The position numbers and the translations under genes were made by a program. A stretch of 64,000 bases of DNA from positions 1,956,680-2,020,679 of the forward strand of contig NZ_OY781470.1 of the NCBI RefSeq assembly GCF_963676935.1, given 5' to 3'. Source of the DNA: Halarcobacter sp. (GTDB lineage: Bacteria; Campylobacterota; Campylobacteria; Campylobacterales; Arcobacteraceae). Below the pieces are notes generated by a model. The model was not told the DNA's origin and did no database searches. It saw nothing but the letters and a program-made list of their open reading frames with translations. Shown piece by piece: positions 15,638-45,117 of this stretch; position 1 is the stretch's first letter; every line of letters starts with the position of its first letter.

Positions 15638-15643
15638 ATTATA
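15638..15643 (-). promoter_or_regulatory. Probable -10 box for the 12128-15610 gene
   Basis: TATAAT on the minus strand (TTATTATAATTG), 28 bp upstream of the ATG, in the 194-bp gap after the upstream gene's terminator. Confidence 0.5.
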
Positions 15644-15760
15644 ATAAAAAAAAGTTTCTAAATGGATTCAAATTAGTATATTTTTTTAAGTTTATATTAA
15701 TAATTTAGTAAAATACTTAAGTATAAGAATTATAAGTAAAAATAATTTTGATTTTTTAGA

Positions 15761-15790
15761 AAAAGAAAGTAGAAAACTCTACTTTCTTTT
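15761..15790. terminator. Terminator hairpin, copy 2
   Basis: The same 13-bp stem and AAAC loop as at 11717-11746, placed 15 bp after the stop of the 15805-17934 gene. On the minus strand it is followed by TCTAAAAAATC. Confidence 0.8.
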
Positions 15791-15804
15791 AAGATTTAAT
15801 TAAA

Positions 15805-17934: not shown

Positions 17935-18040
17935 GTCCTATTTTCTCCTATTTAAAAAATTAAAATAATAATACCATTAATTTACTTATAATGATATTGA
18001 TTATTATATAAAAATAAAAATGTATATTTATTATACAAGA

Positions 18041-18067
18041 AAGAGAAGAGGAAAACCTTCTTCTCTT
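18041..18067 (-). terminator. Terminator hairpin after the 18072-21038 gene
   Basis: AAGAGAAGAGG, AAAA loop, CCTTCTTCTCTT, a stem with one bulged base, 4 bp after the stop codon. On the minus strand it runs into TTTCTTGTATAAT. Confidence 0.65.
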
Positions 18068-18071
18068 AAGT

Positions 18072-25528: not shown

Positions 25529-25560
25529 TACAGGACAATCCTTTAAAGATTTTTATTGAT

Positions 25561-26502
25561 TTAGTTATCATGGTTATTTTTAATATATTTAAAAAAGAAA
25601 GATGGTATGGTTAATAATGCTAAAGGCATATAAGTTCTAAATTCTTCAACACGTGAAATTAAGAAATGACCGATTAAGAATGGAACTATAACAAAGGCAA
25701 TAGCTTTAATTATTTTTGGTTGATTTTTCCAAGTAAATAGTATAAAAATAAATGGTAATAAAGATACTAATAAATATGGGTAAAACATTAAATTTAAATC
25801 TAACATATTTGCTATATTATATCTATATTGCCAAACTCCACCTAAATAATCTCTATCCATACCATAGTACATCTTTATAGACATTAAAACTGCTACTGTA
25901 ATAATTCCTAATATAAACGTTTTTAGAAATATAATTTTATAATTTTTTTCTTCTTTTAACAATTGATAAACAAAAAACAATGGAACAAGAAAAATAACTG
26001 TTGTTTTATTTAGTGCACCAATTATTAAAATTAAAGAAAGAAGAAAAAACTTATCTTTAACAATTGCAAAATATGCAAGTAAAAAAATAAATATATTAAT
26101 CTCTTCTGATGGCTGGATATGAGCCATAGCACTTAAATTATATAAATAAAAAAAGATCAATATAATAAAAAAAGATATCTCTTTTGAGAAATAGTTTTTC
26201 AAAAAGATATAATAAGAAAAAGAGATTAAAAATAAAAAGATAAATCTTTCAAATAAATAAGCTACATGTGTTTTCATACCAAATAAATTTATAAATACTT
26301 CAGGAATAGTAAACGACAACCATCTAAACTGAAGAGGGGCAGGAGCTGCTGAAGTTATATGAGTAATATGCCAAGACTCAAATCTATCAAAAATTATATT
26401 TGCTACTTTTATATATTCTATTTCAGATATAAGTGAAACTATTAGTGAAAAAATCACTAATAGTAACAACTCATTTTTTTCTAATTTCAATCTTTCTATC
26501 AT
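25561..26502 (-). CDS. Polytopic membrane protein, possible GT-C glycosyltransferase
   Basis: A 313-residue inner-membrane protein with about eight or nine hydrophobic helices. Between helix 1 and 2 is a periplasmic loop with ITSAAPAPLQFRWLSF, a conserved-looking segment seen in membrane proteins of polysaccharide loci that resemble polyprenyl-phosphosugar-dependent (GT-C) transferases, though an acidic catalytic pair is not obvious. It overlaps the preceding secreted-protein gene by 4 bp. Since the same region encodes a polyprenyl-phosphoryl-arabinose-type pathway, it is a candidate final transferase. Function not proven by sequence. Confidence 0.55.
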   Translation of the reverse strand: MIERLKLEKNELLLLVIFSLIVSLISEIEYIKVANIIFDRFESWHITHITSAAPAPLQFRWLSFTIPEVFINLFGMKTHVAYLFERFIFLFLISFSYYIFLKNYFSKEISFFIILIFFYLYNLSAMAHIQPSEEINIFIFLLAYFAIVKDKFFLLSLILIIGALNKTTVIFLVPLFFVYQLLKEEKNYKIIFLKTFILGIITVAVLMSIKMYYGMDRDYLGGVWQYRYNIANMLDLNLMFYPYLLVSLLPFIFILFTWKNQPKIIKAIAFVIVPFLIGHFLISRVEEFRTYMPLALLTIPSFFFKYIKNNHDN

Positions 26503-29500: not shown

Positions 29501-30161
29501 AACTTAATGAAATATCACCTGTAATTAATTGTGGACCATAAATTGGGGTATTAGAAGGACCATATAAAATAAAATAATTAGTTCCAGTCAAAGAGTTAAA
29601 AGTAATATCTGTAGCTAATACATTTCCTGAAGAAACATTTATTTTAAACCAATCTTCATCTTTATTTACCAAGGATAAGTTATTTGTCGAACTAAGAACA
29701 GTAGCAGAAGATTTATTATCATTTTGTTCGCTCGCATCATCTCCTAAAGCAGAAAAACTGTTTGATATTTCTAAATCATATGGTCCACCAGCATCATCTG
29801 TATCAACAACTATATAATAAGTTCCTACTTCTGAAAAATAAAGTATTTCTTCAGTACCAGAAGCTAAATTAGCTGCTAATAATTGATCACTTGAATTTTT
29901 TATAACTACATTTATATCTGTAGTTCTAGAAAATGAAGGATTTACTTTTGGGGTCATTTTAATATATAATAACCCTGGTTCTGTAACATCTAATCTAAAC
30001 CAATCTTCACTACTAGAATCTTCCATTTCTAAAGAAGTGTATGTTCCATAACTTATAACAGTAGCTGCTGCCATATTGTCATTTGGTTCGTAAATGTCAC
30101 TTGCAAATGATCTAAAACTAATAATTATACTAAACAGTATAATCTTTATAACCCTTTTCAT
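26499..30161 (-). CDS. Very large secreted protein: PPC x4, FG-GAP/VCBS propeller, DUF4214 x4
   Basis: A 1220-residue exported protein. The signal peptide ends near FRSFAS. Residues about 22-490 contain four bacterial pre-peptidase C-terminal-type domains, each opening with EPNDN or a variant followed by DWFKINV and LYYIKVGTDD-like strands. Residues about 495-960 are an integrin-like FG-GAP/VCBS propeller with repeated DIDNDGxxEIxxG calcium-loop motifs (DIDNDGVDEI, DIDNDGEIEI, DINKDGKYEI). Residues about 985-1220 are four DUF4214 repeats ending ARYGINP. GGAG precedes the ATG and a TATAAT box is upstream. Likely a Ca2+-binding surface or extracellular protein; no protease domain is present despite the PPC domains. 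Confidence 0.88.
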   Translation of the reverse strand: MKRVIKIILFSIIISFRSFASDIYEPNDNMAAATVISYGTYTSLEMEDSSSEDWFRLDVTEPGLLYIKMTPKVNPSFSRTTDINVVIKNSSDQLLAANLASGTEEILYFSEVGTYYIVVDTDDAGGPYDLEISNSFSALGDDASEQNDNKSSATVLSSTNNLSLVNKDEDWFKINVSSGNVLATDITFNSLTGTNYFILYGPSNTPIYGPQLITGDISLSYNIGVGHPAGDYYYRIYGTSNDTYNLQVSNNTVWQNTDSYEPNDDFASAKEINYGEYSLEANNADDDWFKINVTEPGLLYLEMTPTSGKDINMVLYSSSNTPILQRPSGAGVKESIQYHVHTPGLYYIKVGTDDFDGSYSLKISNNFNYENDDANDNNSGDDTFSNATTVNSANFSISNQVSADEDWYKVYIPYGRHTITLNFDYVDLSDNTTMFLYNDTGSLINASNTEDLSNGKREIATDIGNGTYNPGYYYLRIVGEGQNNYSLNFHTDTIWATELNYGPIGAKNSIALFDIDNDGVDEIFVGTGKSFDSNYNEVLPAGLICLEKDGTVKWEKTFPAMSDPDPTTGKYYNTTSISSPPTFGDIDNDGEIEIVIGVGANSIIENGVEASVGQWGDLGGVYALEKDGTTKWFHEGFHAVGDAKKEGVFGSPIIFDIDSNGTKEVIFGSWDQRAWVLDGVTGQPKEGWPVPLLDTIWSTFKVTDINKDGKYEILASADITENPDPGTTTGGIFHVISANGKQNIPGFDQFVGTGQELGYETLKGKWEEQTLWSTPQVADIDGDDYLEIIYGTGRYHEDPLGNYVKVFEHDGNLKYKLDTNGRTSADPIVCDLDNDGDLEIVAATANGYIYAWDHLGNRLFETKTTPIFRTGDVDIDVPLLAVDLTNNGNLEIIYTQGPQIMIVDKDGNQLTDTSFFNFVTQFFPASPAITDFDIDGIQDIISGGMNTANNKTIVYRWAYSSVKNNFNPRSARYQFNQTTYKIEEFIKRMYSKVLGRTADPVGLNNWLDNLTTKLSVGADVAKGFVLSQEFINKNVTDDQFIEILYESFFNRSSDPGGFSYWKDKLDAWTLRQEVLNGFIYSTEFSNLSNSYGILPFNVENTNLTDVEKFVSRFYSYCLGRDADSGGLNDWTYRLLNNISSGSDIAKGFIFSQEFTNKNYSNKEYLIVLYKAFFDREPDQGGYDIWFNDLENNLKTREEVLDGFLGSQEFISLAARYGINP

Positions 30162-30236: not shown

Positions 30237-30830
30237 TTATCTAAAGGGTTTATAAAATTTTTCATTGGCAATGTCTAGCATTTCTTTATCTCCACTACTA
30301 TCACCATAAGCATAAATAAAATCAAACTCAGTTAAGTTATATATTTCTTTAATACGATTAACTTTTTCTTGCCCATAACAATTTTTAGTAAGAAATTTAC
30401 CGGTTACTTTATCCCCTTTAAAGTCCAACTTTGTGGAGATTAGTTCTAAATTATTTTTTTCACACCAAGGTTGTATCCAACAATCAATAGAAGCTGATAC
30501 AATTACAATTTTATCGTTATTTTTTTTGTGCCAATCAATTCTTTCTATTGCTTTTGGTCTTATAATCTGATTTAAATGATTTAAAGAATACTCATATGAG
30601 ATTTCATAAAATTTATCTTTTTTCATTCCTTTGAAGTACCAGGAAATAAAATATTGTTTAGCTTTATAATTTGGAATAATTTTTAATTTATATAATATTA
30701 ACATTGGAGAAAGAATAATTAATCCAAATAGAAACTTTTTATTTCCTACTGCAAATTTAATAAATTTTAATAAACTATCATCTGTTGTAATAGTTCCATC
30801 AAAATCAAAAAATGCTATTTTGTTACTCAT
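30237..30830 (-). CDS. HAD-superfamily phosphatase (subfamily IB)
   Basis: A 197-residue HAD phosphatase of the SerB-like IB group. Motif I is FFDFDGT with nucleophile D9 and acid D11, motif II is IVSAS, and motif III/IV is YAYGDSSGDKEML. It overlaps the upstream reductase gene by 4 bp (ATGA) and ends the UbiA-GtrA-DprE1-DprE2 operon. In that setting the probable job is removing the 5-phosphate from polyprenyl-phosphoryl-5-phosphoribose, a step mycobacteria perform with a different phosphatase (inference from context). Cytoplasmic. Confidence 0.82.
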   Translation of the reverse strand: MSNKIAFFDFDGTITTDDSLLKFIKFAVGNKKFLFGLIILSPMLILYKLKIIPNYKAKQYFISWYFKGMKKDKFYEISYEYSLNHLNQIIRPKAIERIDWHKKNNDKIVIVSASIDCWIQPWCEKNNLELISTKLDFKGDKVTGKFLTKNCYGQEKVNRIKEIYNLTEFDFIYAYGDSSGDKEMLDIANEKFYKPFR

Positions 30831-31558
30831 ATACTTAACTTTTTGAATATAAATTCTGGTATATGTTTAATTATAAGCATAATAAGTTTCCAAATACCTT
30901 TTGTATAAAGGACATCTTTTTGTTTTTGTTGTGCTTTGAATATATCCAAAGCAATCTCTTCTGGCTGAGAAGTTAATTTCTCAGGAAGATCTAAACCTTC
31001 TGTCATTTTTGTATTAACAAAACCTGGTTTTACCGTTAAAACAGATACTTTACTTTCGTATAATCTATTTCTAAGACCACTTAAGTAAGCACTAAATGCT
31101 GCTTTAGAAGAACCATAAATATAGTTTGCTTTTCGTCCTCTATCTCCTGCAACAGAACTTACGCCAACTATAAATCCATTTTTGTTGCTTTCCATATCAT
31201 TTGCAATAATATTTAATAAACTCACTACACCTGTATAATTGACATTGATAGTATTAATAGTTTTAGTAAAATCCTTCTCACACTCTTTTTGATCTGCCAT
31301 ATATCCTGCCACAACTATAACACCTAAAGGTTTTACTTCTAAGTTATTATAAAATTCTTCATGGGTATCATATTTTGATACATCCAATTCTTTTAACTGT
31401 ACATCTACATTTGAACGAATTTTTATATCATCAGCTAATTCTGCTAAGCTATCACAATTTCTTGCAGCTAAATAAAGACTATATCCATTTTTAGCATATA
31501 CCCTTGCCAACTCTTTTGCTATGTCACTTTTTGCACCGATTATTAATATATAACTCAT
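30827..31558 (-). CDS. SDR-family reductase, DprE2-like
   Basis: A classical short-chain dehydrogenase of 243 residues. It has IIGAKSDIAKELAR as cofactor loop (similar to the GASSDIG/GAKSDIA form of DprE2), catalytic serine near S134, and Y148/K152 (YGSSK). It is adjacent to a DprE1-like oxidoreductase, as in mycobacteria, where DprE1 oxidises decaprenyl-phosphoryl-ribose at C2 and DprE2 reduces the ketone to the arabinose epimer. The C-terminus has a hydrophobic/basic tail (KLIMLIIKHIPEFIFKKL) suitable for a membrane-bound lipid substrate. Confidence 0.78.
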   Translation of the reverse strand: MSYILIIGAKSDIAKELARVYAKNGYSLYLAARNCDSLAELADDIKIRSNVDVQLKELDVSKYDTHEEFYNNLEVKPLGVIVVAGYMADQKECEKDFTKTINTINVNYTGVVSLLNIIANDMESNKNGFIVGVSSVAGDRGRKANYIYGSSKAAFSAYLSGLRNRLYESKVSVLTVKPGFVNTKMTEGLDLPEKLTSQPEEIALDIFKAQQKQKDVLYTKGIWKLIMLIIKHIPEFIFKKLSI

Positions 31559-31559
31559 G

Positions 31560-32858
31560 TTAGATTCCTACTCTTTTTGATTGTAATGATTGAAATTTTT
31601 TATCCATATTATACTCTTTTCTTAACTCTCTAAATTTATCAATGTAAGGATAGCCTTTTTCAAAAGTCTCTTTTGAAACTCTTACATCTTTTGTAAGATA
31701 TATCCTACCACCATATTTCAAAACTATTTTGTCAAGTTTATCAAGTAAGTCAAATAATCCTTTTTCTATTTTAAAATCAAGTGCTAAACTATAACCTTCA
31801 ATTGGGAAAGAAAGATAATTTTGATTTTCTTTACCATAAAGTTTAAGTACTGCTAAAAAAGAGCCTTTACCACTGTTTGAAATTTCAGTTAAAATCTCTT
31901 GAAGTCCTTCAAAACTAACCTCTTTTGGCAAAATAAATTGATACTGGGTAAACCCACCTTTTCCATAAATTCTATTCCAATTATTTATTGCATCAAGAGG
32001 ATAAAAGAATGTATCAATATCAACTTTTTGTTTAGATTTACCACTAGGAGCTTTTTTATAATATAACCAATTAAAAGCCTTTACACTTAATGAATTCAAC
32101 GCAAATGAAGGAAAATTAAAAGGTATGTTCAATTTCTTTTTTTCTTTAAAATCTAGTTTGCCATCATCTGCAAAATCTCCAACCATAAGAAGACATTTTC
32201 CTATGTCACTTCCTTTTGCAAGGCAATCAATCCAAGCAACAGAATATGGCAGATGTGAATATTCTTCAAATGCTTCAAATGTTTCTTTTAAATTTTTAGT
32301 TTTTATTGTAGTTTGATTAATATATTTTGAATTTATTTTTTTTAGTGATATTTTTGCATCTAAGATAATTCCAGTTAATCCCATACCTCCACATGTTGCA
32401 AGAAACAACTCTTTGTTTTCTTTATTAGAACATTTTTTTATTTCTCCATTAGGCAACATTAGATTAAATTCAATTACACAATTTGAAAAACAACCTTCTA
32501 CATGATGGTTTTTCCCATGCACATCACTAGCAATTGCTCCACCTACAGTTATAAGCTTTGTTCCAGGAGTGACTTTTAAAAACCATCCCTTTGGAACAAA
32601 AGATTCTATGATCTCACTTAGCAACACTCCACTTTGACAGTGAAGAACACCACTATTTTCATCGAATTCTAAAAAGTAGTTATAAGGTTTACAATATATT
32701 AGCTCTTCATTTAATGCACTATCACCATAACTTCTTCCATTACCAAAAGGTATTAACTCTTTTTTATCATCTAATTTTTCAACAAGTTTATTTTTGCTTT
32801 TTAATATAAAACTATTGTTTTTTATAATAGGATACATTCCCCAACTATTTAACTGCAT
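31560..32858 (-). CDS. FAD-dependent oxidoreductase, DprE1-like
   Basis: A 432-residue FAD-linked oxidase of the vanillyl-alcohol-oxidase fold. The FAD loop PFGNGRSYGDSALN (37-50) and GGAIASDVHGKNHH correspond to DprE1's conserved FAD site. The C-terminal half carries FTQYQFILPKEV and GGRIYLTKDVRVSKETF, typical of the aldonolactone-oxidase-like cap. The frame is open to a TTG at 32876, but the ATG at 32858 has AAGG six bases before it and is chosen. Expected reaction: 2-oxidation of polyprenyl-phosphoryl-ribose, together with the DprE2-like reductase. It starts 1 bp after the GtrA stop. Confidence 0.8.
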   Translation of the reverse strand: MQLNSWGMYPIIKNNSFILKSKNKLVEKLDDKKELIPFGNGRSYGDSALNEELIYCKPYNYFLEFDENSGVLHCQSGVLLSEIIESFVPKGWFLKVTPGTKLITVGGAIASDVHGKNHHVEGCFSNCVIEFNLMLPNGEIKKCSNKENKELFLATCGGMGLTGIILDAKISLKKINSKYINQTTIKTKNLKETFEAFEEYSHLPYSVAWIDCLAKGSDIGKCLLMVGDFADDGKLDFKEKKKLNIPFNFPSFALNSLSVKAFNWLYYKKAPSGKSKQKVDIDTFFYPLDAINNWNRIYGKGGFTQYQFILPKEVSFEGLQEILTEISNSGKGSFLAVLKLYGKENQNYLSFPIEGYSLALDFKIEKGLFDLLDKLDKIVLKYGGRIYLTKDVRVSKETFEKGYPYIDKFRELRKEYNMDKKFQSLQSKRVGI

Positions 32859-32859
32859 T

Positions 32860-33252
32860 TCAATCCTTAAATACAAATTTTTTATCTAAAAAATATTTAA
32901 CTACATAACCAATACTAAGTCCTATAATAGCACCAATATATTTTGCATTTTCATCTTCAAAAAAGAAATCAAACAATATTTCAAAACCCCAAAATATGAA
33001 TGTTGTAAAAACTCCCATAAGAGAATAAAGCAAAAATTTTTTACCATCATCTTTTTTATTTTTTGGTTTATGATAAAAAATAAACTTCTTATCTAAAATA
33101 TATTTTAAAATTAGTCCAGACAATGTTCCTACAAACATTGCAATATATAATGAAAAAGCACCATCATAAAAATAAAAACTTATATATTGGAATAATAAAT
33201 TTACTAATGTAGAGAAAAAAGCAAATAATACATATCTTATAGCAATATTCAT
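32860..33252 (-). CDS. GtrA-family membrane protein
   Basis: A 130-residue protein with four hydrophobic helices and the GtrA features RYVLFAFFSTLVNLLFQY at the start and YVVKYFLDKKFVF at the end; LDKKFIF occurs in the middle loop. GtrA proteins are thought to help flip polyprenyl-phosphosugars across the inner membrane. A GtrA-like protein also neighbours dprE1/dprE2 in mycobacteria (Rv3789), which supports a role with the lipid-linked pentose here. It directly follows the UbiA gene. Confidence 0.85.
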   Translation of the reverse strand: MNIAIRYVLFAFFSTLVNLLFQYISFYFYDGAFSLYIAMFVGTLSGLILKYILDKKFIFYHKPKNKKDDGKKFLLYSLMGVFTTFIFWGFEILFDFFFEDENAKYIGAIIGLSIGYVVKYFLDKKFVFKD

Positions 33253-34113
33253 CTATAATTTTACCACTATATAAAAACTTAATAACCAAAACAAAATAGT
33301 TAACTGCAAGAATCTATCTTTTATAACAATTTTTGTTGGACTTCCACTATTTTCTTCTACAAATGTTATTTGCATATATCTCATAATGCCAAGGATTACA
33401 AAAAAAGATGTTAAGTAAAGATATTCTGTATTCAATCTTTTTATTACTTCTTCTGAAACTGTGTATAAAATATATGCTACAACTATAACACCAGACATAA
33501 ATACCATCACAGCATTTACGAACTCTAAATTATAACCATCAATATTTTTTCTGGTCTCTTTTCCTTGTGATGATAGAAGTACATCATCTCTTCTTTTTGC
33601 AACAGCTAAGAATAAAGCTAATAAAAATGTCATAATAATTATCCACATTGATAATTGACCTTGAATTACACTTGCTCCTGCAAAAAGTCTTAAAACAAAT
33701 CCCGTAGCAATTATAAAAATATCAACAATAGTAATATGTTTGAGTTTTAATGAATATGCTATATTTAAAATAAAATAAAGACTTAAAACAATAAACAAAT
33801 TAATATTTAATAAATATGCACTTATAAGTGATATTCCTGATAAAAAAAGTATCAATAATTTTGCAGTACTTTTAGTAACTTTTCCACTAGCAAGAGGTCT
33901 AAACTTTTTTTTAGGATGTTGTTTGTCCTCTTCTATATCCATATAATCATTTAATACATAAATACTACTAGCTGTTAATGAAAATAATACAAATGCAAAT
34001 ATTGTATAAAATGAATCATTTGTTGTAAAATGAAATGAAAATAATAATGGTGCAAATACAAATAAATTTTTTATATATTGATGTGGTCTTAAAAGTTTTA
34101 ATATTTGATTCAT
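33253..34113 (-). CDS. UbiA-family polyprenyl-phosphate phosphoribosyltransferase-like protein
   Basis: A polytopic membrane prenyltransferase of 286 residues from the ATG at 34113. The motif NDYMDIEEDKQHPKKKFRP (55-73) is the form seen in DPPR synthases (Rv3806c: decaprenyl phosphate plus PRPP), rather than in quinone-pathway UbiA proteins. A second acidic site is near AVAKRRDD. About eight or nine helices follow. The frame is open to an ATG at 34140 inside gmd; I prefer 34113, four bases after the gmd stop, because MNQILKLLRPHQYIKN is the usual family head. It starts the pathway continued by GtrA, DprE1-like, DprE2-like and HAD proteins. Confidence 0.82.
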   Translation of the reverse strand: MNQILKLLRPHQYIKNLFVFAPLLFSFHFTTNDSFYTIFAFVLFSLTASSIYVLNDYMDIEEDKQHPKKKFRPLASGKVTKSTAKLLILFLSGISLISAYLLNINLFIVLSLYFILNIAYSLKLKHITIVDIFIIATGFVLRLFAGASVIQGQLSMWIIIMTFLLALFLAVAKRRDDVLLSSQGKETRKNIDGYNLEFVNAVMVFMSGVIVVAYILYTVSEEVIKRLNTEYLYLTSFFVILGIMRYMQITFVEENSGSPTKIVIKDRFLQLTILFWLLSFYIVVKL

Positions 34114-34117
34114 TAGT

Positions 34118-35192
<1,075 letters not shown>

Positions 35193-35256: not shown

Positions 35257-36141
35257 TTAATTTTTTGAACTAAATATTTCTTTCAATACCCTATTACCTA
35301 TATTAGGATAAAAATGGGATGCATCTCTCCAATCTAAATCATTTGGAAATTCTAGACCTATATTTATCAAATTTAAATATTTTATTTCACATCTATTATT
35401 AACTTTTTTTAAATATCTTTGCACATTGATTTCAAAACTTTCAAACAATGGATTAATTTTTTCTTTTTTAAGAAGCTTTGAATGTAAAGGAAGAGAGACA
35501 AGTGTTATATTAATTCCTTTATTAGATTTGGAACAATTATAAATTAAACTATTTAAAAGAGTTTCAGTTTCTTGAAAGTGATGATTCATTTTCTCAATAT
35601 CTATCAAGGTTAAATACTCTTTAGGAAATCCTAATTGATTTAAATCATGAATATTACTACCTATTGAGAAATAATCTACTTTATTTATTCTAAATATATT
35701 TTCAAATAAATTTTTTAATATATAAGAGATCTCATCTTTAACATTTAAAAAACCATTATTTCTATTCATAAGAAAAACATTAGGTGATAACTCAATTATT
35801 AAATTTTTTATATTAGACTCAGAAAGAATTATATTTGATATGTTAATTATATCTTTTTGAACAATCCCAGGACTCGCAACTTTGACAACTTTATTGTAAT
35901 TATCAGAGAATCCCCTACCTACGTGAGATGTACCAACTATTACCGTGTCAATTTTTTCTGTAAAAACTTTTTTAAAAACTTTTTCAGATATATATCTATC
36001 TAAAAATAATGTTCTAATACTTTTAGGAATATAATCTCTTACTATATTATTTTCTATAGTATAATCTACAATTTTAGGTAATAAAAATAAAATAGACGCA
36101 ATTAACAATGAAAGTATAATATAAAATAATAATTTAACCAT
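35257..36141 (-). CDS. Membrane-anchored SGNH-hydrolase-like protein, MBOAT partner
   Basis: A 294-residue protein with one N-terminal transmembrane helix (about 5-21) and an otherwise soluble, presumably periplasmic domain. VIVGTSHVGRGFSD puts a candidate nucleophile at S72 (block I), and DASHFYPNIGNRV near the end gives the D273/H276 pair of block V. This layout is that of AlgJ/DltD/PatB-type partners of MBOAT acyltransferases, which take the acyl group from the MBOAT protein and transfer it to a polymer. The gene is 21 bp after the MBOAT stop. It is the last gene of the acyl-modification operon; no terminator hairpin is evident after it. Confidence 0.7.
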   Translation of the reverse strand: MVKLLFYIILSLLIASILFLLPKIVDYTIENNIVRDYIPKSIRTLFLDRYISEKVFKKVFTEKIDTVIVGTSHVGRGFSDNYNKVVKVASPGIVQKDIINISNIILSESNIKNLIIELSPNVFLMNRNNGFLNVKDEISYILKNLFENIFRINKVDYFSIGSNIHDLNQLGFPKEYLTLIDIEKMNHHFQETETLLNSLIYNCSKSNKGINITLVSLPLHSKLLKKEKINPLFESFEINVQRYLKKVNNRCEIKYLNLINIGLEFPNDLDWRDASHFYPNIGNRVLKEIFSSKN

Positions 36142-36162
36142 TAGTACTCAATTCCCTATTCA

Positions 36163-37728
36163 TCAATATCTTTCATATATAAAAGTCTGTGCATAACTAC
36201 TTTCTAATAAAAGTAAAAATAAAATGTTAAAAAGAAATAGAGTACACAATAAATAAAATAAAAAACCTTTCATAAAAAAAACTTTTTTTCTTTTTTTAAA
36301 GTTTTTTATTCCAAAAATATCCATTGTATTTGGAGATAAAAATATTATAAAAGTTGCCACAATTAAAATAAATATATAAGAAGAAGTATTTGAAAATATA
36401 TAGTTTCCATATTTATATCCATTTAGTAATGGCAAAAAACCATTGAAACTAAATTCTTCTTTTATAAAATTTGGCAATATTTCTTGTAAACTTAAAGGAA
36501 GACTTATACTTTTAAAATCAATTATAGATAAATAAATTTTAAATAAAGAATCAATATCTTGCACCTTTAAACTAATGGCCATAAGCATACTAAACATAAG
36601 AATTACAATTCTATTCAAATAATTTTTACTATTTTTATCTTTAGATATATTATCAGTAAAAAGAAACGTCGGCAGTTTAAGTAAAAACAATATTATTATT
36701 ACTAAGGTTGTCGTTCCCATTATTATTAAATTTGGAGCATGCCATATTCCTATTATTATATAAGATAAAAATAAACCTATGGCCCAAGATAAAATCATTT
36801 TTTTTTCCATATCTTTGATGGGAAGCTTTTTTAGTAAACTAAGAGTAGGAATAAAAAAATACTCTCTTACAAAGCTAGTAAAACTAATATGCCATCTTGA
36901 TATATATTCTTGAGTACTATAAGATTTTAGTGGCGAATCAAAATTTACTGGAAGTAAAATTCCAAAACATAAAGCTAATCCAATTGCGATATCTGAATAA
37001 GCTGAAAAATCAAAATATAATTGAACTAAAAAACCCCAAATAATAAACCATCCATCGAATATAGTTATACTGCTATCCAAATTCTTAATATTAAATACCA
37101 TTTGATTAATTATACCACCTAAAGGATTTGCAATCCAAAGTTTTTTTAATAAACCAGTTAAAAACAATAATATTCCTGTAGCAATCCAATAATTTGGAAT
37201 TTTTTTAAATCCTAAACTTGATATTTGTTCTACAGCATTGCGATAAGTAAAAATAGGTCCGGCAATAAAGTTTGGGAAAAAACCTAAATATAGTAGATGC
37301 CTAGAATAAGATAATATTGATAGAGAAGCATTTCTACTATCAATGATTGCAGTGATTTGTTGTAATGAATAAAAAGATAATCCTATTGGTATTCCATATG
37401 TAAATAAAACACTTGTTTCTAATGATTCTCTATCAAAAAAGCCATGACCAAACTTAAATATTATTAAAGGTAATAAAGAAAAAACAATGCCAATAAAAAT
37501 TAATATTTTACTATTCTTAGTTTTATGAATTTTTCTTACTATTAAATAGTTTATCGTAGAAGTAATAAATACTAAAACAAACGAAACTAAATCTATTAAA
37601 TATAATGAAACATAAAGTAATCCAAGAAAATAATAAGGTATTAAAGAAGGGAAAATCTTTTTTATAATTAAAAAACCTAAAAAAATTAAAGGTAAATAAA
37701 ATATTAAAAACTCTACTGAATAAAACAT
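36163..37728 (-). CDS. MBOAT-family membrane O-acyltransferase (AlgI-like)
   Basis: A 521-residue inner-membrane protein with a dozen hydrophobic segments. Hallmarks of the AlgI/PatA group are YFDFSAYSDIAIGLALCFGI (239-258), SRWHISFTSFVREYFFIP with H280, and GIWHAPNLI with the catalytic H330. It should pass an acyl group from a cytoplasmic donor across the membrane, normally an acetyl group, to its SGNH partner encoded next. In this operon the donor could be the acyl carrier protein (inference; DltB, which works with an ACP-like DltC, is a precedent in this superfamily). Confidence 0.92.
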   Translation of the reverse strand: MFYSVEFLIFYLPLIFLGFLIIKKIFPSLIPYYFLGLLYVSLYLIDLVSFVLVFITSTINYLIVRKIHKTKNSKILIFIGIVFSLLPLIIFKFGHGFFDRESLETSVLFTYGIPIGLSFYSLQQITAIIDSRNASLSILSYSRHLLYLGFFPNFIAGPIFTYRNAVEQISSLGFKKIPNYWIATGILLFLTGLLKKLWIANPLGGIINQMVFNIKNLDSSITIFDGWFIIWGFLVQLYFDFSAYSDIAIGLALCFGILLPVNFDSPLKSYSTQEYISRWHISFTSFVREYFFIPTLSLLKKLPIKDMEKKMILSWAIGLFLSYIIIGIWHAPNLIIMGTTTLVIIILFLLKLPTFLFTDNISKDKNSKNYLNRIVILMFSMLMAISLKVQDIDSLFKIYLSIIDFKSISLPLSLQEILPNFIKEEFSFNGFLPLLNGYKYGNYIFSNTSSYIFILIVATFIIFLSPNTMDIFGIKNFKKRKKVFFMKGFLFYLLCTLFLFNILFLLLLESSYAQTFIYERY

Positions 37729-37751
37729 ATTAAAATATTATTCTTATAATT

Positions 37752-39446
37752 TTATTTTTCAAAATAAATATCTTCCATTAGTAAGCCATCTAAGCCTGTT
37801 GTTCCAAATACTGCAACAGCATCTTGAACTGAATGAACAATAGGTTTTCCCATGATATTAAAACTTGTATTTAATATTATTGGTACACCAGTTATACGAT
37901 TAAATTCTTTAATTAAAGAATATAACCAAGGATCTCTATTTTTATTTATCGTTTGTACTCTCCCTGTGTTATCTTCATGGACAACTGCTGGAACTAAATT
38001 TACTTTATCAGTTTTATACTGAAAAGTAAAAGACATAAATGGTGAATCTATAGAGTCTTCAAACCATTCATTTTGATATTCTTCTAAAACAATAGGTGCA
38101 AAAGGACGATATGATTCTCTTCCTTTAACTTCTTTATTTATTAAATCTTTCATTTTTTTAGATCTAGGGTCAGCTAAAATAGATCTATGTCCTAATGCTC
38201 TAGGTCCAAATTCTGCTGCCCCTCTGAAAATGCCAATTATTTTCCCCTTAGCTAACTCTTCTGCTATTATTTTATAAGAGTTATTAGATAAGGAATGTGT
38301 ATTCCATTTTGACTTTAAAACTGTATTATTAATTACATTTAAATCTGGTAGAGTACCCAGATAACAAGTTTCACTAAAAAAAGGAATTTCTTTATTTTCT
38401 GTTATCTCCATCCATCCAAGAAGTGCTGAACCTATTGCATTTCCATCATCTGCAGGAGCAGATGGAATATGTACATTATTAAAAAAAGTATTTTTAACAA
38501 TCTTTCCATTATAAGAAGAATTTAAAGCTGTTCCCCCTGAAAGTATTAAATTATCTTCTCCATATTTTTTTAAATTATTTAAAATTTTATTCATAAATTT
38601 TTCATATGCTAACTGTCCAGTAGCTGCTAAAACTGAAGCTTTTTCAACAGGTTCATTAGCTTTTCGCACATATTTAGATAATTTCTTTTCTACATTTAGA
38701 ATTGTTGCTTTATCTGCAAAAATTGGTCTTCCATCCTCAAAGATTATTATGGTTTCAAGTACTTCAAGTAAAGATAAATCAGGTTCACCAAATGCTGCTA
38801 ACCCCATTACTTTCCACTCTTCACCAGCTATCCAATCAAAACCACAAAGAGAAGTTAACCAACAATAATAAGTTCCTAAACTCCCAGGTCCCCAAGATCG
38901 CCATAATCGCTTTAATTTACGATTTTTTAGATGAAATAAACTAAGTGCGCCAACTTCTCCTTCTCCATCAGAAACTAAGACAAGTGCATTATCATATGGT
39001 GATGAATATACAGCATTTGTAGCATGACATAAATGATGATCAAAATTCATTATTTTATCATTTATATTAGATTCAAAAATAGTTTTAATATTATGTCCAC
39101 TATTTTTATGTATTTGAGATTGAATACCAAGCATCCATTCACCAATATTTGAATCTACTAACAAAGAAGAAGGTTTTAATTGTTTAGTACTATTATCAGC
39201 AGATATACTTTGTTTCTCTTTTTTCCAACTTGTAGAAATAAAAAAATTACTATAAGGATCATCTTTAATTATTTTTTTAATATGAGGAGCTACATGATCT
39301 ATGTGATCAGGAGCTATTCCCCATGCTCTTTTACATTGTAAAAAACGCTCACTAGCTTCTGCAAAAACAACTTTTCCTTTTTCATTTACAATTGCAAATG
39401 CTGGATCATGACCAGAAGTTGATAAACCAATAAAATATTTCCCCAT
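37752..39446 (-). CDS. Carbamoyltransferase (NodU/TobZ family)
   Basis: A 564-residue cytoplasmic O-carbamoyltransferase, which uses carbamoyl phosphate and ATP to place a carbamoyl group on a sugar or alcohol. The N-terminal Kae1-like domain has GLSTSGHDPAFAIV, the metal-binding FDHHLCHA (H137, H138, H141), SDGEGEVGAL and GGTALNSSYNGKI. The C-terminal carbamoyl-transfer domain has AEFGPRALGHRSILADPRS and YRPFAPIVLEE. The length is normal for NodU/TobZ. Its ATG directly follows the ACP stop. In Nod factors and antibiotics this family carbamoylates sugars. The acceptor here is unknown: the glycan or a hydroxyl on the ACP-bound acyl chain. Confidence 0.92.
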   Translation of the reverse strand: MGKYFIGLSTSGHDPAFAIVNEKGKVVFAEASERFLQCKRAWGIAPDHIDHVAPHIKKIIKDDPYSNFFISTSWKKEKQSISADNSTKQLKPSSLLVDSNIGEWMLGIQSQIHKNSGHNIKTIFESNINDKIMNFDHHLCHATNAVYSSPYDNALVLVSDGEGEVGALSLFHLKNRKLKRLWRSWGPGSLGTYYCWLTSLCGFDWIAGEEWKVMGLAAFGEPDLSLLEVLETIIIFEDGRPIFADKATILNVEKKLSKYVRKANEPVEKASVLAATGQLAYEKFMNKILNNLKKYGEDNLILSGGTALNSSYNGKIVKNTFFNNVHIPSAPADDGNAIGSALLGWMEITENKEIPFFSETCYLGTLPDLNVINNTVLKSKWNTHSLSNNSYKIIAEELAKGKIIGIFRGAAEFGPRALGHRSILADPRSKKMKDLINKEVKGRESYRPFAPIVLEEYQNEWFEDSIDSPFMSFTFQYKTDKVNLVPAVVHEDNTGRVQTINKNRDPWLYSLIKEFNRITGVPIILNTSFNIMGKPIVHSVQDAVAVFGTTGLDGLLMEDIYFEK

Positions 39447-39704
39447 CTACTCTTCCATCATTTTACATATTGCATCTGCAACTTCATTTGCAGTTTTATA
39501 TTCAAACATTATTACTGGTTCTATTTCTAAATCATATTCTTCTTCTAAGTACCCACAAAGAAGTACTGCATTAAGAGAATCTATACCAACATCTGCTAAA
39601 TTTGTATCTGCAGTTAATTTATCAAGTGAGACCTTAGTTCTTTTCGATACTTTTTCTAATAAAAATTCTACTACTTCTTGATGCTTATTATTTATATTTT
39701 TCAT
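39447..39704 (-). CDS. Acyl carrier protein
   Basis: An 85-residue stand-alone carrier protein. The phosphopantetheine site is ADVGIDSLNAVLL with S43, in the standard four-helix layout, followed by an acidic helix III (EEEYDLEIEP). It overlaps the upstream P450 gene by 17 bp and has AAAGG before its ATG. It differs from the housekeeping fatty-acid ACP and, placed between a P450, an acyl-AMP ligase operon and an MBOAT, probably carries the acyl chain being modified. Confidence 0.92.
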   Translation of the reverse strand: MKNINNKHQEVVEFLLEKVSKRTKVSLDKLTADTNLADVGIDSLNAVLLCGYLEEEYDLEIEPVIMFEYKTANEVADAICKMMEE

Positions 39705-40767
39705 TTTTTTCTACCTTTAAATTTTTTAATGATTTTGCTGTTTTAATTGATTGTTCAAAAGTCCAATCTTTGATTGATATATTTTTATGAATTGCAAAAA
39801 ATATTGGGATTACCATAGCAATTATACTTTTAGAAATCATTGCTCCAGGGCATGAGTGAGCACCATGTCCAAATTCTAAACTAGGCTTAGCTAAATTACA
39901 ATTATTTTGTTCTGATATATTATTTTCGTTAGTAATTTTAATTAAAATATAAGTTCCTTCTTTAAAAAACTTTTCATCAATAATGAAATCTTTTTTTACA
40001 ATTCTATATATATTAAGTAAAGATGCAGAGTTATATATTATATTTTCTAAATTTTCAAAAAATATTTCTTCACTAAATTTTTCTCTCACAAAATACTTTT
40101 CTTTATTACTTAAAATTTCAAAAAATACATTACCCAATGTTTGAATAAATGGAGACATTGAACCATAAGCAACTAATAATAATATTAACTTATTATCATA
40201 TGATAAATTAATTTCATTTTCTGAATTTATATATGAAAGCATAGTGTTCTTAGAATCTGTATTATTTATTTCAAAAGATTTTTTTAGAGTATCTAATAAA
40301 TATTGGACTTCACCTTCTAATTTCACTAATTCTCTAATGGATAATAATGGTTCAGCAACTTTTTGTGCATAATATAATCTTTTCTCAAAATCATCCATTA
40401 AAACTAAATTTTCACCCATTATTATTGGTCTAATTATTTTTTTTGCAATTTCAAAACAATAATCTATTAAATCTATATCTATTGAAAAATCTAAAGATTT
40501 AGTAACTGACTCAATTTTATCTTCAAAAAAAGGTAAAAAATATGAAAGATTTTTTTTCCCAAATGTCTCTTTAAATATTCTTTTATGAATTTTATGTTCA
40601 TTTCCTTCTAAAAAAAAAGGAGAATGAGATAAAAATTTTGTTAAAAGAGTTAAATCAATATTTACATTATTTTGAAGCTTTGATATATAATCTCTTAATG
40701 GCATTACCTCAACAGAATTACTTCCTAATATCTTTGTTGCTAAATCATAATCATCTATTATATACAT
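39688..40767 (-). CDS. Divergent cytochrome P450 (second P450 of the operon)
   Basis: A short P450-like heme-thiolate protein of 359 residues. The heme loop LEFGHGAHSCPGAM is intact with C306 as the expected iron ligand, and EGNEHKIHKRIFKETF corresponds to the C-helix HxxxR-type region. The I-helix segment LLVAYGSMSPFIQT lacks the acid/alcohol pair used for O2 activation, and the K-helix ExxR seems to be replaced (ENIIYNSAS). It may therefore be an atypical P450 or a peroxygenase- or isomerase-like heme protein. It starts 1 bp after the radical-SAM stop. No redox partner genes are in the window. Confidence 0.8.
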   Translation of the reverse strand: MYIIDDYDLATKILGSNSVEVMPLRDYISKLQNNVNIDLTLLTKFLSHSPFFLEGNEHKIHKRIFKETFGKKNLSYFLPFFEDKIESVTKSLDFSIDIDLIDYCFEIAKKIIRPIIMGENLVLMDDFEKRLYYAQKVAEPLLSIRELVKLEGEVQYLLDTLKKSFEINNTDSKNTMLSYINSENEINLSYDNKLILLLVAYGSMSPFIQTLGNVFFEILSNKEKYFVREKFSEEIFFENLENIIYNSASLLNIYRIVKKDFIIDEKFFKEGTYILIKITNENNISEQNNCNLAKPSLEFGHGAHSCPGAMISKSIIAMVIPIFFAIHKNISIKDWTFEQSIKTAKSLKNLKVEKNEKYK

Positions 40768-40768
40768 A

Positions 40769-42340
40769 TTATTTATCTAATCCTTTACATTCACTCCAAG
40801 GAGATTCTAGTCCTATAAATTTAGGTTCCCACAAATTCCTTTCTGAATACATGTATCTAAGTTGTGCATAAAAAAACATTACTGTCACAAATAAATCTTG
40901 ACCTAAATTCTTTTCAACAATCTTTTCTAATATTAAGTTAAACATCTTCTTTTCAGATTTACCCATATTTTTTACTTTCATTGAAATATTAAGAATATCT
41001 CGATCAATATGATCTTTATTTGATAATGAATTTTTTTTCAAACCTTTTGGAATAAAACTACAATCTAAAATATCTAACATATTTAAAAACCTATTTGCAA
41101 AATTTTCAGGAGCATATAAATTAGAACTTAACCACTGCATACCTTTTTTCATATCTTTTTTAGAAATTGTTTTATGAATGATATTGGATTCCCATAACAT
41201 TCTATTTGAATACTCACTTTCATCTAAAATTCTTTTTTCCTTTTTTAATCTTTTAATTAGTGGCGTAGAATCAGGTGCAACCACTAGAGTCAAAGTAAAA
41301 TAAGGATTAAATGAATTCATAGCTAATTCAAATTGTTTATTGAATATATCTTTATCATCTGCATCAAAACCTACCATCATCCCACATTGAGGCAGAATAC
41401 CAAATTTTAAAAGTTTTTTTATAACTTCTTCCATTTCACACTTAACATTTTGAAATTTTTTTACTTCTTTCATACTATTTGAATTTGGAGATTCAATTCC
41501 TATAAAAACTTGGTTTAATCCTGCTTCTGCACATAGCTTTAATAATTCATCATCTTTTACTATGTCTGTGGAAACTTGTGTTCTAAAAAAAACAGGATCT
41601 GATTTATGTAAAATATTCCAGTTTTTTAATTCATTTAAAAGTTTCTTAGCTTGCATTCTATTAATTGTAAAATTATCATCAGATAGAAATACTATTCTAT
41701 ATCCTAAAGAATACAACTGTTCAAGCTCTTTTATAACATTTTTTATTGGTTTATAACGCTGTTTTTGACCTAAATAAACAATTACATCACAAAATTCACA
41801 AGAATATGGACATCCCTTTGAAGTCTGAATAGCACCAACAGCTGCTCTATGGTTTGGATACAAATCCCATCTTGGTAAAGGTAAATTGGTTAAATCAGGT
41901 TTTGTTCCTATATATCTATTTTTAAAAGAATTATTTGTTAGATCACTAAATAACTCATCTGCAATATTCTCTATCTCACCTTCAACAAGAATATCACAAT
42001 ATTCTCGCATAACATTAGGAGATAAAGAAACAAAAGGCCCTCCCATAATAATGATTTTACCTCTATTTCTAAACTCTTTTGAAATTTCAATCATTCTATT
42101 TTTTTGGGAAATATAACCAGTTATTCCAATATAATCTGCTTCAATATCAAAATCAACCTCTGAAACCTGTTCATCACACAGTTTTACTTCAAAATCTTTA
42201 GGAATAAATGATGCAATAGTAGGTAGAGCTAAATTAGCTATTTGTACACCTGGTTTATAACCCATTGATTCTAAAACTTCTGCTCCATAATAAGTAGGAA
42301 AATCAGATTTAGGATTTATTAAATAAATTAATTTTTTCAA
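40769..42340 (-). CDS. B12-binding-domain radical SAM enzyme
   Basis: A 523-residue radical SAM protein. Residues about 1-145 form a cobalamin-binding-type Rossmann domain (YGAEVLESMGYKPG, EADYIGITGYISQ, IIIMGGPFVS) but without a DxHxxG motif, which is often missing in this class. The [4Fe-4S] motif is KGCPYSCEFCD with C177, C181 and C184. The SAM-binding GIESPN is near residue 280, and a C-terminal helical domain follows. Enzymes of this class do C- or P-methylations, cyclisations and other rearrangements on unactivated carbons. Position between the two P450 genes suggests the substrate is the carrier-bound chain (inference). Confidence 0.9.
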   Translation of the reverse strand: MKKLIYLINPKSDFPTYYGAEVLESMGYKPGVQIANLALPTIASFIPKDFEVKLCDEQVSEVDFDIEADYIGITGYISQKNRMIEISKEFRNRGKIIIMGGPFVSLSPNVMREYCDILVEGEIENIADELFSDLTNNSFKNRYIGTKPDLTNLPLPRWDLYPNHRAAVGAIQTSKGCPYSCEFCDVIVYLGQKQRYKPIKNVIKELEQLYSLGYRIVFLSDDNFTINRMQAKKLLNELKNWNILHKSDPVFFRTQVSTDIVKDDELLKLCAEAGLNQVFIGIESPNSNSMKEVKKFQNVKCEMEEVIKKLLKFGILPQCGMMVGFDADDKDIFNKQFELAMNSFNPYFTLTLVVAPDSTPLIKRLKKEKRILDESEYSNRMLWESNIIHKTISKKDMKKGMQWLSSNLYAPENFANRFLNMLDILDCSFIPKGLKKNSLSNKDHIDRDILNISMKVKNMGKSEKKMFNLILEKIVEKNLGQDLFVTVMFFYAQLRYMYSERNLWEPKFIGLESPWSECKGLDK

Positions 42341-42349
42341 AAAATATTC

Positions 42350-43456
42350 CTAATTAGATTCTATAAATTTAGCAGGTAGATTTTTTATTCTAGTTGCTAT
42401 TTCTGCTTTATAAAATATTTGTTTACTTAAATCACATTTAATTATAGGAAATTTCTCAAAAAACCTAGGGATAAACTCTTTTATTATGTTTTTTGAAAGT
42501 TCAGCACCTAAACATTTATGACTTCCTGAACCAAATGTAAGATGAGAAATTGATGGACTATAATCATCTATTTTTTCCAACTCTACTTGTTCACCATACT
42601 GTTTATTATCCCGATTTATTGAAGGAATATCAATTAAAACTTGAGTCCCTTTTGGAATTATTTTTCCATTAATTTTAACATCTTTTTTTGTTTCTTTTGA
42701 TAACAAATTAGTTGATGCATAGAGACGAATTAAATCATCAACATGATTATTAACCCATTCAAAAGATGAATATTTTCTTATTTTTTCATCTTCCATTTCA
42801 CTGTAAGCTACCATAATATGTGAAATTGTTTCAGTTGTTGCTCTAGGAGCAATTAATAATACAATAAGTAGTGATACAATTTCTTCTTTTGTCATAATAT
42901 TTTTTGTATGCTCAGAAATAACTTTAAATAAACTATTTGCAGGGAAATTATCATATTGTTTAATAATCAAATTATTAAGATCAATTAAAACATTTTGTAA
43001 TTTTATAAACTGTGAAACTGATGCCATTCTTTCAACAGACTTTGTAGCTATTTCAATTTGTTTAATAAATTCTTTTCTATCAGATATTTTTACTCCAAAC
43101 AAAATCTCAGTCATATCAATATAAAAATTATCACAAATATCTACTATTAAATCAATACTATCATTTTTAATCTTTTCTATTTCATTTAATCTATATTCTA
43201 TTGCTTCAATAATATTTGAATTAAATCTTTCAATTGCTAAATGTGTAAAAATCTTATTAACTGGCTTTCTAATATCAAGATGTTCTTTTCCATGCATGAA
43301 AGGAAGAAACATTTTTAAATGTCTTTTTAACTCTGTAAAATCAATTCCAGATTCCTTTTCAATTAATTCAATGTAATTATACATATTTGGAGGTCCAAAT
43401 TCTTCTTTTGAAGAAAGAATTCGTTTTGCTGTCTTAAAGTCTTTAATTACCTGCAC
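42350..43456 (-). CDS. Cytochrome P450 (first P450 of the operon)
   Basis: A 368-residue soluble P450. The heme loop is LTFGSGSHKCLGAELSK with C315, preceded by the usual NRD (281-283) and the C-helix HLDIRKPVNKIF. The I-helix reads APRATTET (203-210). The K-helix reads DDLIRLYAS, so the normally invariant ExxR is DxxR (D241, R244). The start is the GTG at 43456: AAGGAG lies 5 nt upstream, inside the end of the ligase gene. It is likely to hydroxylate or otherwise oxidise a carrier-bound or free acyl substrate. P450s are uncommon in Campylobacterota, though Campylobacter jejuni has one near a glycan locus. Confidence 0.9.
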   Translation of the reverse strand: MQVIKDFKTAKRILSSKEEFGPPNMYNYIELIEKESGIDFTELKRHLKMFLPFMHGKEHLDIRKPVNKIFTHLAIERFNSNIIEAIEYRLNEIEKIKNDSIDLIVDICDNFYIDMTEILFGVKISDRKEFIKQIEIATKSVERMASVSQFIKLQNVLIDLNNLIIKQYDNFPANSLFKVISEHTKNIMTKEEIVSLLIVLLIAPRATTETISHIMVAYSEMEDEKIRKYSSFEWVNNHVDDLIRLYASTNLLSKETKKDVKINGKIIPKGTQVLIDIPSINRDNKQYGEQVELEKIDDYSPSISHLTFGSGSHKCLGAELSKNIIKEFIPRFFEKFPIIKCDLSKQIFYKAEIATRIKNLPAKFIESN

Positions 43457-45117
43457 TCATACTCCTTAAATTTATAGCCTTTTTGATAATTATTTGCAAC
43501 AATTTTCCTCTGAATTTTTCCACTTGAAGTTTTCATAAGTTCACCTCTTTTTAGAAAAAATATTTTAGATAATGTTACTCCAAAATTTTTTTGAATATCT
43601 TGATTGATATTTTTAATCAATTCTTCTTTATTGTTTAATTTATATTTTTCTTTTTCTCTTACTTCAATAAATAGAATAATATCACCATCAATAGAACCTT
43701 CAATTTGAATTGCTGCAGCTGAATGTGCATTTAATAGATCACTATTTCTTGCTGCTATTTGTTCTAGTTCAGAGGGTGAAATATTTTTTCCATTTTTTAC
43801 AATAATATCTTTTTTTCGCCCTGTAATAAAAAGATGATTATTTGAAATAAAACCTAAATCACCTGTTCTAAATCTTTTTGAAGGATAAAAAGATTCTTTT
43901 TCATAATATCCTTGAGTAATAGAATTACCACTAATAATTATTTCACCTATTTCTCCATTTGATAAAACATTATCATTATATAAATCGACTATTTTTATTT
44001 CTAAATTTTTTTCTTCTCCGAGATAACATCCCTCTGTATAATTTCCTTTATAGATTTGAGGTTTTGAAAATCTAAAATTTGGTTCCCCTGAAACAAATAA
44101 TGTTGCTTCTGCAAGTCCATATACAGGAGTTACAGATAATGGATTTAAATGAAATTGTGAAAATATTTTTCTAAAAGAATTCAATGTTTTTGATGGAACA
44201 TAATCTGCACCACAAAAAGCAACTTCTAAACTTGACAAATCTAATTTATTATTAAACTTTTCTATATCAAGTTCATTACAAAGTTCAAAAGAAAAAGCTG
44301 GGCCTCCAGTAAAGTTTACTTTAAATTTACTTATTGCATAAAGCCAACGTTGTGGTTTTTGTATAAAATGCAAAGGGTCCATCTGAACTATTTTCTGTCC
44401 ACTTAATAATGGATAAAAAAGTCCCCCGAACAAACCCATATCATGAAAATGAGGCAACCAAGTTAATAAGGTTTTTTCTTTTCTAAAGTTCCATTTTGAT
44501 GCAACTTTATAATAATTTGCTAAAATATTCTCAGATGAAATCAAAACCCCTTTAGGCTCACTAGTAGTACCTGAAGTAAATTGAATTATAACTGGTTGAT
44601 TTTGGGATATTTCAAAACCTGGTAATTTTAAAGATTTATTCACTTTAGTAGTATTTGACAAAGATTCTATTGTTAATACATTATTTATATTAAATAAATC
44701 ATCACTTTTAAATAATGATTTAATTGACTCAATTTTATTATCATGGGTTAAAATAAATGAGCCATCACATATTTTAATAATTTTACCTAATCTTAATGAA
44801 TTTAGCCCAAAGCGAGAAATTGTAGTGGGAATTACAGTTATACCTGCAAAAATACAAGCTATTAACGTGATCAAAAAATTTGGACCATGTTCTAGCAATA
44901 AAATCAATTTACTATTTGCAGGTATGTATTGAATAAGACTATAAGCGAACTCTTTTGATAAAGCAAGAATTTCTTTAGGTGATAAATAAACTTCACCTCT
45001 ATCCCCACCTCTTTCTAAAAAGCAATATTGCCATTCATGATTGGATGAAGATAATACTTTCTCAATCTTTAATGCTAAACATTTATTCAAAATCATCCTT
45101 AAGATAATAAATATCAT
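43447..45117 (-). CDS. Fatty acyl-AMP ligase-like enzyme (FAAL)
   Basis: A 556-residue ANL-superfamily adenylating enzyme that should activate a carboxylic acid with ATP and load it on the operon's ACP. The P-loop motif is QFTSGTTSEPKG (179-190), YGLAEATLFVSGEP is the FAAL-typical A5 motif, RTGDLGFI follows, and the C-terminal lysine lies in KTSSGKIQRK (K534). The head is slightly divergent from classical FAALs (FLERGGDRGEVYLSPKE corresponds to the family's G-x-x-Y-L region). The start is uncertain: ATG 45117 lacks an SD, while a TTG at 45090 has AAGG six bases upstream. First gene of the operon. Confidence 0.88.
   Translation of the reverse strand: MIFIILRMILNKCLALKIEKVLSSSNHEWQYCFLERGGDRGEVYLSPKEILALSKEFAYSLIQYIPANSKLILLLEHGPNFLITLIACIFAGITVIPTTISRFGLNSLRLGKIIKICDGSFILTHDNKIESIKSLFKSDDLFNINNVLTIESLSNTTKVNKSLKLPGFEISQNQPVIIQFTSGTTSEPKGVLISSENILANYYKVASKWNFRKEKTLLTWLPHFHDMGLFGGLFYPLLSGQKIVQMDPLHFIQKPQRWLYAISKFKVNFTGGPAFSFELCNELDIEKFNNKLDLSSLEVAFCGADYVPSKTLNSFRKIFSQFHLNPLSVTPVYGLAEATLFVSGEPNFRFSKPQIYKGNYTEGCYLGEEKNLEIKIVDLYNDNVLSNGEIGEIIISGNSITQGYYEKESFYPSKRFRTGDLGFISNNHLFITGRKKDIIVKNGKNISPSELEQIAARNSDLLNAHSAAAIQIEGSIDGDIILFIEVREKEKYKLNNKEELIKNINQDIQKNFGVTLSKIFFLKRGELMKTSSGKIQRKIVANNYQKGYKFKEYECR

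Follow-up and report, generated by a model that had tools for sequence, protein, structure and literature searches.

The window analyzed here is a 64,000-nucleotide stretch of DNA from Halarcobacter sp. (positions 1956680–2020679 of a 3.1 Mb single-contig genome), and it contains an operon of eight open reading frames (ORFs) that fill positions 35257–45117 on the minus strand. The operon joins genes predicted to serve acid activation, carrier-protein loading, and tailoring to a pair of genes probably involved in acyl transfer. Pfam and NCBIfam profiles established the domain identities of the ligase, P450a, the radical SAM protein, the acyl carrier protein (ACP), the carbamoyltransferase, and the MBOAT. 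From the first gene to the last, the operon encodes the following proteins.

43447..45117, minus strand: acyl-AMP ligase of the fatty-acyl-AMP ligase (FAAL) type, 556 amino acids (Pfam AMP-binding, 1.6e-49)
42350..43456, minus strand: P450a, 368 amino acids (Pfam p450, 1.6e-19; heme Cys loop FGSGSHKCLG)
40769..42340, minus strand: radical SAM protein with a putative B12-binding domain, 523 amino acids (Pfam Radical_SAM, 2.5e-16; DUF4070)
39688..40767, minus strand: P450b, a diverged P450 of 359 amino acids (no Pfam match; TIGR04538, 1.1e-6; heme loop FGHGAHSCPG)
39447..39704, minus strand: ACP, 85 amino acids (PP-binding, 3.2e-15; attachment site VGIDSLNAV)
37752..39446, minus strand: O-carbamoyltransferase of the NodU/NovN/GdmN/TobZ kind, 564 amino acids (Carbam_trans_C, 2.9e-67; Carbam_trans_N, 1.8e-31)
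36163..37728, minus strand: MBOAT acyltransferase, 521 amino acids (Pfam MBOAT, 8.1e-11; His330; C-terminal FIYERY with Tyr518)
35257..36141, minus strand: SGNH-fold putative periplasmic acyltransferase partner with an N-terminal membrane helix (no Pfam match; AlphaFold model; Ser72, Asp273, His276)

All eight genes lie where a preliminary description of this DNA had placed them, and they are as tightly spaced as it had claimed, with successive intergenic distances from FAAL to SGNH of -10, 9, 1, -17, 0, 23, and 21 bases. The same description credited the operon with its own promoter. Sigma-70-like matches do occur in the 134-base gap 5' of the FAAL gene, but a scan of the region for such sites returned 78 against 81 expected by chance; a promoter signal above chance was absent, and this claim was not borne out.

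When 84,980 species genomes were scanned with a profile of the carbamoyltransferase, 80 loci were retrieved, about 30 of which have the linked core. With the addition of two plasmids and the removal of two near-duplicates, 30 non-redundant further loci were available for comparison. The core order FAAL–P450a–P450b–ACP–carbamoyltransferase is found in 21 of these loci; five of the others have one P450, three have no FAAL directly upstream, and one has no recognized ACP. The radical SAM gene is present in 13 of the 30. A search for the same eight-gene set, which had been proposed as a check, recovered all of it in a second genome of the same family (G080), where the genes are ordered differently, with the radical SAM gene now in last place, and in three of the further loci (L043, L050, and L076), which brings the number of full eight-part operons to five when the window is included. 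The same eight parts in G080, together with the whole or partial set in 30 further loci, therefore indicate far more than a chance cluster.

In the host's own order, close relatives of the operon P450 occur in two of 399 sampled genomes, namely that of the window and G080, and the same two were the only ones detected among 397 genomes of the phylum with the carbamoyltransferase profile at an E value of 1e-100. Hosts of the further loci are Alphaproteobacteria and Gammaproteobacteria (Pseudomonas, Hahella, Marinomonas, Alteromonas, and Idiomarina), joined from outside the Pseudomonadota by Bacteroidota (Galbibacter and Pedobacter) and Verrucomicrobiota (a Puniceicoccaceae bacterium). A tblastn search of plasmids located the operon set in Rhodobacteraceae bacterium SC52 and a shorter version, consisting only of thioesterase, FAAL, P450, ACP, and carbamoyltransferase genes, in Phaeobacter sp. 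G2.

The carbamoyltransferases of the operons form one clade in a maximum-likelihood tree (support 100/100), and, across loci, pairwise distances for the carbamoyltransferase, the FAAL, and the two P450s are correlated (rho 0.79–0.87), a correlation to which shared host descent also contributes. The window and G080 operons may represent two separate acquisitions, as suggested by the failure of their carbamoyltransferases to group together in a part of the tree where inner branches are weak and composition is skewed. Two groups of matches were rejected as belonging to the family. Carbamoyltransferase matches at 38–43% in methanotrophs, cyanobacteria, and others (L077 and L079–L127) are unlinked to a FAAL–P450–ACP core, and those placed in the tree form a clade separate from that of the operon. 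Matches to the operon P450 elsewhere in the order (L014–L041) were also set aside: L014–L016, the ones compared, are canonical (AGHE[TS], ExxR), and other operon parts were not found in the short stretch around their P450s.

The genes that follow the core are exchangeable. An MBOAT and/or SGNH gene lies right after the carbamoyltransferase gene in 15 of the 30 further loci, and a thioesterase-like gene is found in six; the two never occur together (Fisher p 0.017). This exclusion would follow if both modules served to unload the same ACP. Other genes accompany the operon in individual loci. The thioesterase-like protein encoded at L042:8654–9640, a locus without an MBOAT, has the motif GGNCQG, in which Cys replaces the usual Ser nucleophile. 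Five loci without an MBOAT carry genes for TPR proteins beside the core (for example, L057:12066–14453 and L073:3053–5845) whose C-terminal part, judged by eye, resembles LpxL-type or lysophospholipid acyltransferases. In Idiomarina (L075), the operon lies among genes named by eye as PqqD-like, HPr-kinase-like, and sulfotransferase-like, together with a second MBOAT/SGNH pair.

Where the MBOAT module is present, its catalytic residues are intact. The catalytic His330 and the shuttle Tyr518 are invariant in all 16 aligned operon MBOATs, the latter within a C-terminal FxYxxF-like motif that reads FIYERY in the window and FxYxxF in most others; a few of the proteins end one to three residues past the Tyr. 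Ser72, Asp273, and His276 (window numbering) are likewise invariant in 16 of 16 SGNH partners. No sequence relative of the window SGNH protein was found in the PDB, but its AlphaFold model (pLDDT 75.5, pTM 0.71) has an SGNH hydrolase fold that fold searches matched to Campylobacter jejuni PatB (Z 13.0 over 173 residues) and DltD (E 4.7e-4). The corresponding Tyr of PatA undergoes auto-acetylation and then hands the acetyl group to PatB; in the Dlt system, the same Tyr motif is found on DltX (PMC12148441).

The P450 pair departs from canonical P450s. The heme Cys loop is kept in all 56 operon P450 domains, and yet none of the 56 has the I-helix signature [AG]Gx[DE][TS], which is present in three of three unrelated control P450s from the same order; the I-helix alignment may be off by about one residue, but this motif test is independent of its register. 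The aligned Arg of ExxR remains in 10 of 25 P450a and two of 31 P450b domains. In the window, P450a has D-x-x-R in place of ExxR, and P450b has lost both the ExxR Arg and the I-helix acid. Most alphaproteobacterial operons encode P450a and P450b in one ORF of about 725 amino acids, and this natural fusion suggests that the two act as one unit. The preliminary description, which had the acid oxidized twice, presupposed two ordinary monooxygenases and has to be qualified in view of these features. The predicted model of the fused P450 from Fluviibacterium (pLDDT 89.2, pTM 0.90) shows that the closest fold to its P450b half is the P450BioI–fatty-acyl-ACP complex (Z 36.1 over 352 residues, 21% identity), followed by PksS (Z 33.6). 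The same P450BioI complex with acyl-ACP (3ejb) is also among the best matches by sequence. This predicted fold supports the view that P450b works on acyl-ACP; it does not indicate the reaction. Weak sequence similarity links the operon P450s to TxtE and P450nor entries.

The best solved relatives of the ligase are FAALs (3kxw/3lnv, 9.7e-76), FadD23, and mycobacterial FAALs; by sequence it is closer to fatty-acyl-AMP ligases than to CoA ligases and is predicted to load the ACP. The ACP Ser motif is present in the relatives in which an ACP was found, and the window genome contains a gene for an AcpS-type phosphopantetheinyl transferase. NovN (1.5e-86), GdmN, and TobZ are the solved enzymes nearest to the carbamoyltransferase. 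Elsewhere in G080, at a site apart from the operon, a second NodU-like carbamoyltransferase has a canonical P450 as its neighbor (L011:631–3340).

The radical SAM protein, 61% identical between the window and G080, has a CxxxCxxC cluster at C177/C181/C184; its putative B12-binding domain scores 24.9 bits, below the curated cut-off of 32.1. Its nearest plasmid relatives include one in Shinella beside a precursor of the ribosomally synthesized and post-translationally modified peptide (RiPP) type, because of which the protein may be a C-methyltransferase, albeit one that is optional in the wider family. No relatives were found in viral contigs. A CobA/BtuR adenosyltransferase was not found in the window genome or G080, which has no bearing on the use of methylcobalamin; a MetH-type match is present in the window genome.

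We consider it fairly probable that the operon encodes a carrier-protein-fed pathway of envelope acylation that delivers a tailored acyl group to an extracytoplasmic acceptor. Shown here are a conserved gene set, intact catalytic residues, the folds, and the exchange with a thioesterase-like module. The model that we build on them begins with the FAAL, whose substrate would be a carboxylic acid, probably a fatty acid; the enzyme would activate it and load it onto the dedicated ACP. P450a and P450b, acting as one heterodimer on the acyl-ACP, would introduce an oxygen function, and the NodU-type enzyme would carbamoylate the resulting hydroxyl; in some operons only, the B12/radical SAM enzyme would make a further change, most likely the addition of a C-methyl group. 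The MBOAT would then collect the finished acyl group from the ACP and attach it, at the outer face of the membrane, to the Tyr in the C-terminal FxYxxF motif that the MBOAT itself carries; from there the SGNH protein would move it, via its Ser, to a hydroxyl of the acceptor, most likely a surface glycan. We infer which acid is used, what reaction the P450s carry out, in what order tailoring proceeds, and which acceptor receives the product. The preliminary description had outlined much the same logic, and it appears largely right in having an acid activated, loaded onto the ACP, tailored there, and transferred by MBOAT and SGNH, given the invariant MBOAT and SGNH residues, the exclusion between end modules, and the P450BioI-like fold.

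Several points weigh against this proposal, which is based on sequence and models rather than experiment. SGNH proteins of other operons are only 12–19% identical to that of the window. Neither end module was recognized in nine of the 30 further loci, and the core can therefore work without MBOAT/SGNH. DltB similarity was rejected as proof of an ACP donor: on the DltB model, the operon MBOAT (117 bits) is outscored by an AlgI-like paralogue encoded in the same genome (148.8 bits). Because such paralogues look more DltB-like, the claim that an ACP is the donor depends on gene linkage and module exchange. The operon contains no redox partner, and since its P450s lack the canonical oxygen-activation acid, hydroxylation is not assured. 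It is conceivable, although we would rate it as somewhat doubtful, that the pair does not hydroxylate and instead catalyzes a dehydration, isomerization, desaturation, or peroxide- or NO-dependent reaction, or that P450b serves as a heme-bearing scaffold for P450a; the carbamoylated oxygen would then come from the acid itself. P450BioI, the closest fold, oxidizes acyl-ACP by oxygen chemistry, which, like the universally kept heme Cys loop, argues against such a reading. In its favor are the loss of the I-helix signature in every operon domain but in no control, the loss of the ExxR Arg in 29 of 31 P450b and 15 of 25 P450a domains, the weak similarity to TxtE and P450nor entries, and the precedent of the CYP157 family, which also lacks the ExxR Arg and shows that this loss is compatible with a P450 (PMC3599690). 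A non-hydroxylating pair would be compatible with the rest of the acylation pathway.

The nature of the product and its acceptor can also be read differently. Glycan genes lie on either side of the window operon, including those for a GDP-mannose dehydratase, a DprE1/DprE2/UbiA set, glycosyltransferases, and nucleotidyltransferases. The O-antigen setting noted previously holds for the window, and four other loci (L062, L063, L064, and L068) similarly lie among sugar-nucleotide genes; it does not hold as a general linkage. Also weighing against a surface glycan, the G080 operon lies outside a glycan locus, with neighbors named by eye as a restriction-type system, a XerD-like recombinase, and pyrG, and most homologous operons were not found in glycan loci by a marker search that under-detects glycosyltransferases. 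A glycan target is plausible, but not general. This distribution would suit a pathway that turns the ACP-bound product into a soluble or lipid-like natural product, with MBOAT/SGNH acylating or exporting a small acceptor rather than a polymer and a thioesterase releasing the product in relatives. The six loci with a thioesterase-like gene instead of MBOAT/SGNH, the nine with neither, and the reduced operon of Phaeobacter sp. G2 point in the same direction. We nevertheless regard a small-molecule product as unlikely, given the four loci among sugar-nucleotide genes and the intact shuttle motif and SGNH triad in the window, G080, and other MBOAT loci, as in envelope polymer acylation (PMC12148441). 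An acceptor that is a periplasmic or outer-membrane lipid or protein rather than a glycan, with the chemistry otherwise as proposed, appears quite improbable. Members of the MBOAT superfamily also acylate lipids and proteins, and there are genomes and positions in which no polysaccharide genes are linked to the operon; O-antigen type genes flank the window operon, however, and the MBOAT and SGNH pairs characterized so far act on polymers (PMC12148441).

It is tempting to speculate, with less confidence than we place in the envelope acylation pathway itself, that the operon defines an undescribed class of envelope decoration in Gram-negative bacteria. In this class, an ACP-bound acid would be oxidized by an obligate P450 pair lacking the usual oxygen-activation residues, carbamoylated, and passed from the ACP through a Tyr-shuttle MBOAT and SGNH protein to a surface polymer, and the core could be rewired to a thioesterase for release. 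A literature search covering openly licensed papers found no description of the gene set. If this proposal is true, Gram-negative bacteria have a carrier-fed MBOAT–SGNH system that can attach custom-made acyl groups at the cell exterior. The P450 pair is a natural test case for P450 function without the oxygen-activation acid and without ExxR. The operon occurs in at least four phyla, and one solved example would therefore explain many unnamed clusters.

The window has further features outside the operon. Two GDP-mannose 4,6-dehydratase genes (34118–35152 and 10552–11586) lie 23.6 kb apart, encode identical proteins, and differ at one of 1035 bases: they are a recent duplication. Positions 30237–34140 contain genes for HAD, SDR (DprE2-like by position), DprE1-like (391.6 bits), GtrA-like, and UbiA/decaprenyl-phosphate phosphoribosyltransferase proteins, which may form a pathway to a D-arabinofuranose donor within a Gram-negative glycan locus. 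In large proteins encoded at 12128–21038, 24818–30161, and 58512–60983, DUF4214 repeats are combined with TSP1, RCC1, LVIVD, or FG-GAP domains or with a methyltransferase.

Parts of the operon resemble several known systems. Its carbamoyltransferase shares both Carbam_trans domains with NodU, NovN, GdmN, and TobZ, but the operon enzymes have a clade of their own, are linked to FAAL, P450, and ACP genes, and presumably act on an ACP-bound substrate. P450BioI (CYP107H1) is likewise a P450 that binds fatty-acyl-ACP; the operon domains differ from it in their low identity, their pairing or fusion, and their loss of the I-helix acid and ExxR. CYP157 proteins are bacterial P450s without the ExxR Arg, but they are linked to Streptomyces conservons and are not known to be associated with an ACP or with acyl transfer.

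The closest parallels concern the final transfer. PatA/PatB and AlgI-type systems have an MBOAT with the catalytic His and a fused C-terminal FxYxxF motif, followed by an SGNH partner with Ser, Asp, and His. These systems use acetyl-CoA, and MBOAT/SGNH pathways other than Dlt are stated to have no carrier protein (PMC12148441), whereas the operon here has a ligase and an ACP and its acyl group is apparently tailored. The Dlt system (DltA, DltC, DltB, DltX, and DltD) similarly combines an AMP-forming ligase, a carrier protein, an MBOAT, and an SGNH protein in one operon and uses a Tyr shuttle. Unlike Dlt, however, the window ligase is FAAL-like rather than DltA-like (it scores 103.9 bits where the DltA cut-off is 559.85, and FAAL models and structures score higher), the MBOAT, at 117 bits, stays below the DltB cut-off of 375, and the Tyr motif is fused to the MBOAT C-terminus instead of residing on a separate DltX microprotein; the operon also adds four tailoring enzymes, and its hosts are Gram-negative. 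In its conserved residues, the MBOAT/SGNH pair matches the acyl-Tyr shuttle known from PatAB and Dlt, but with an apparent dedicated carrier-protein donor.

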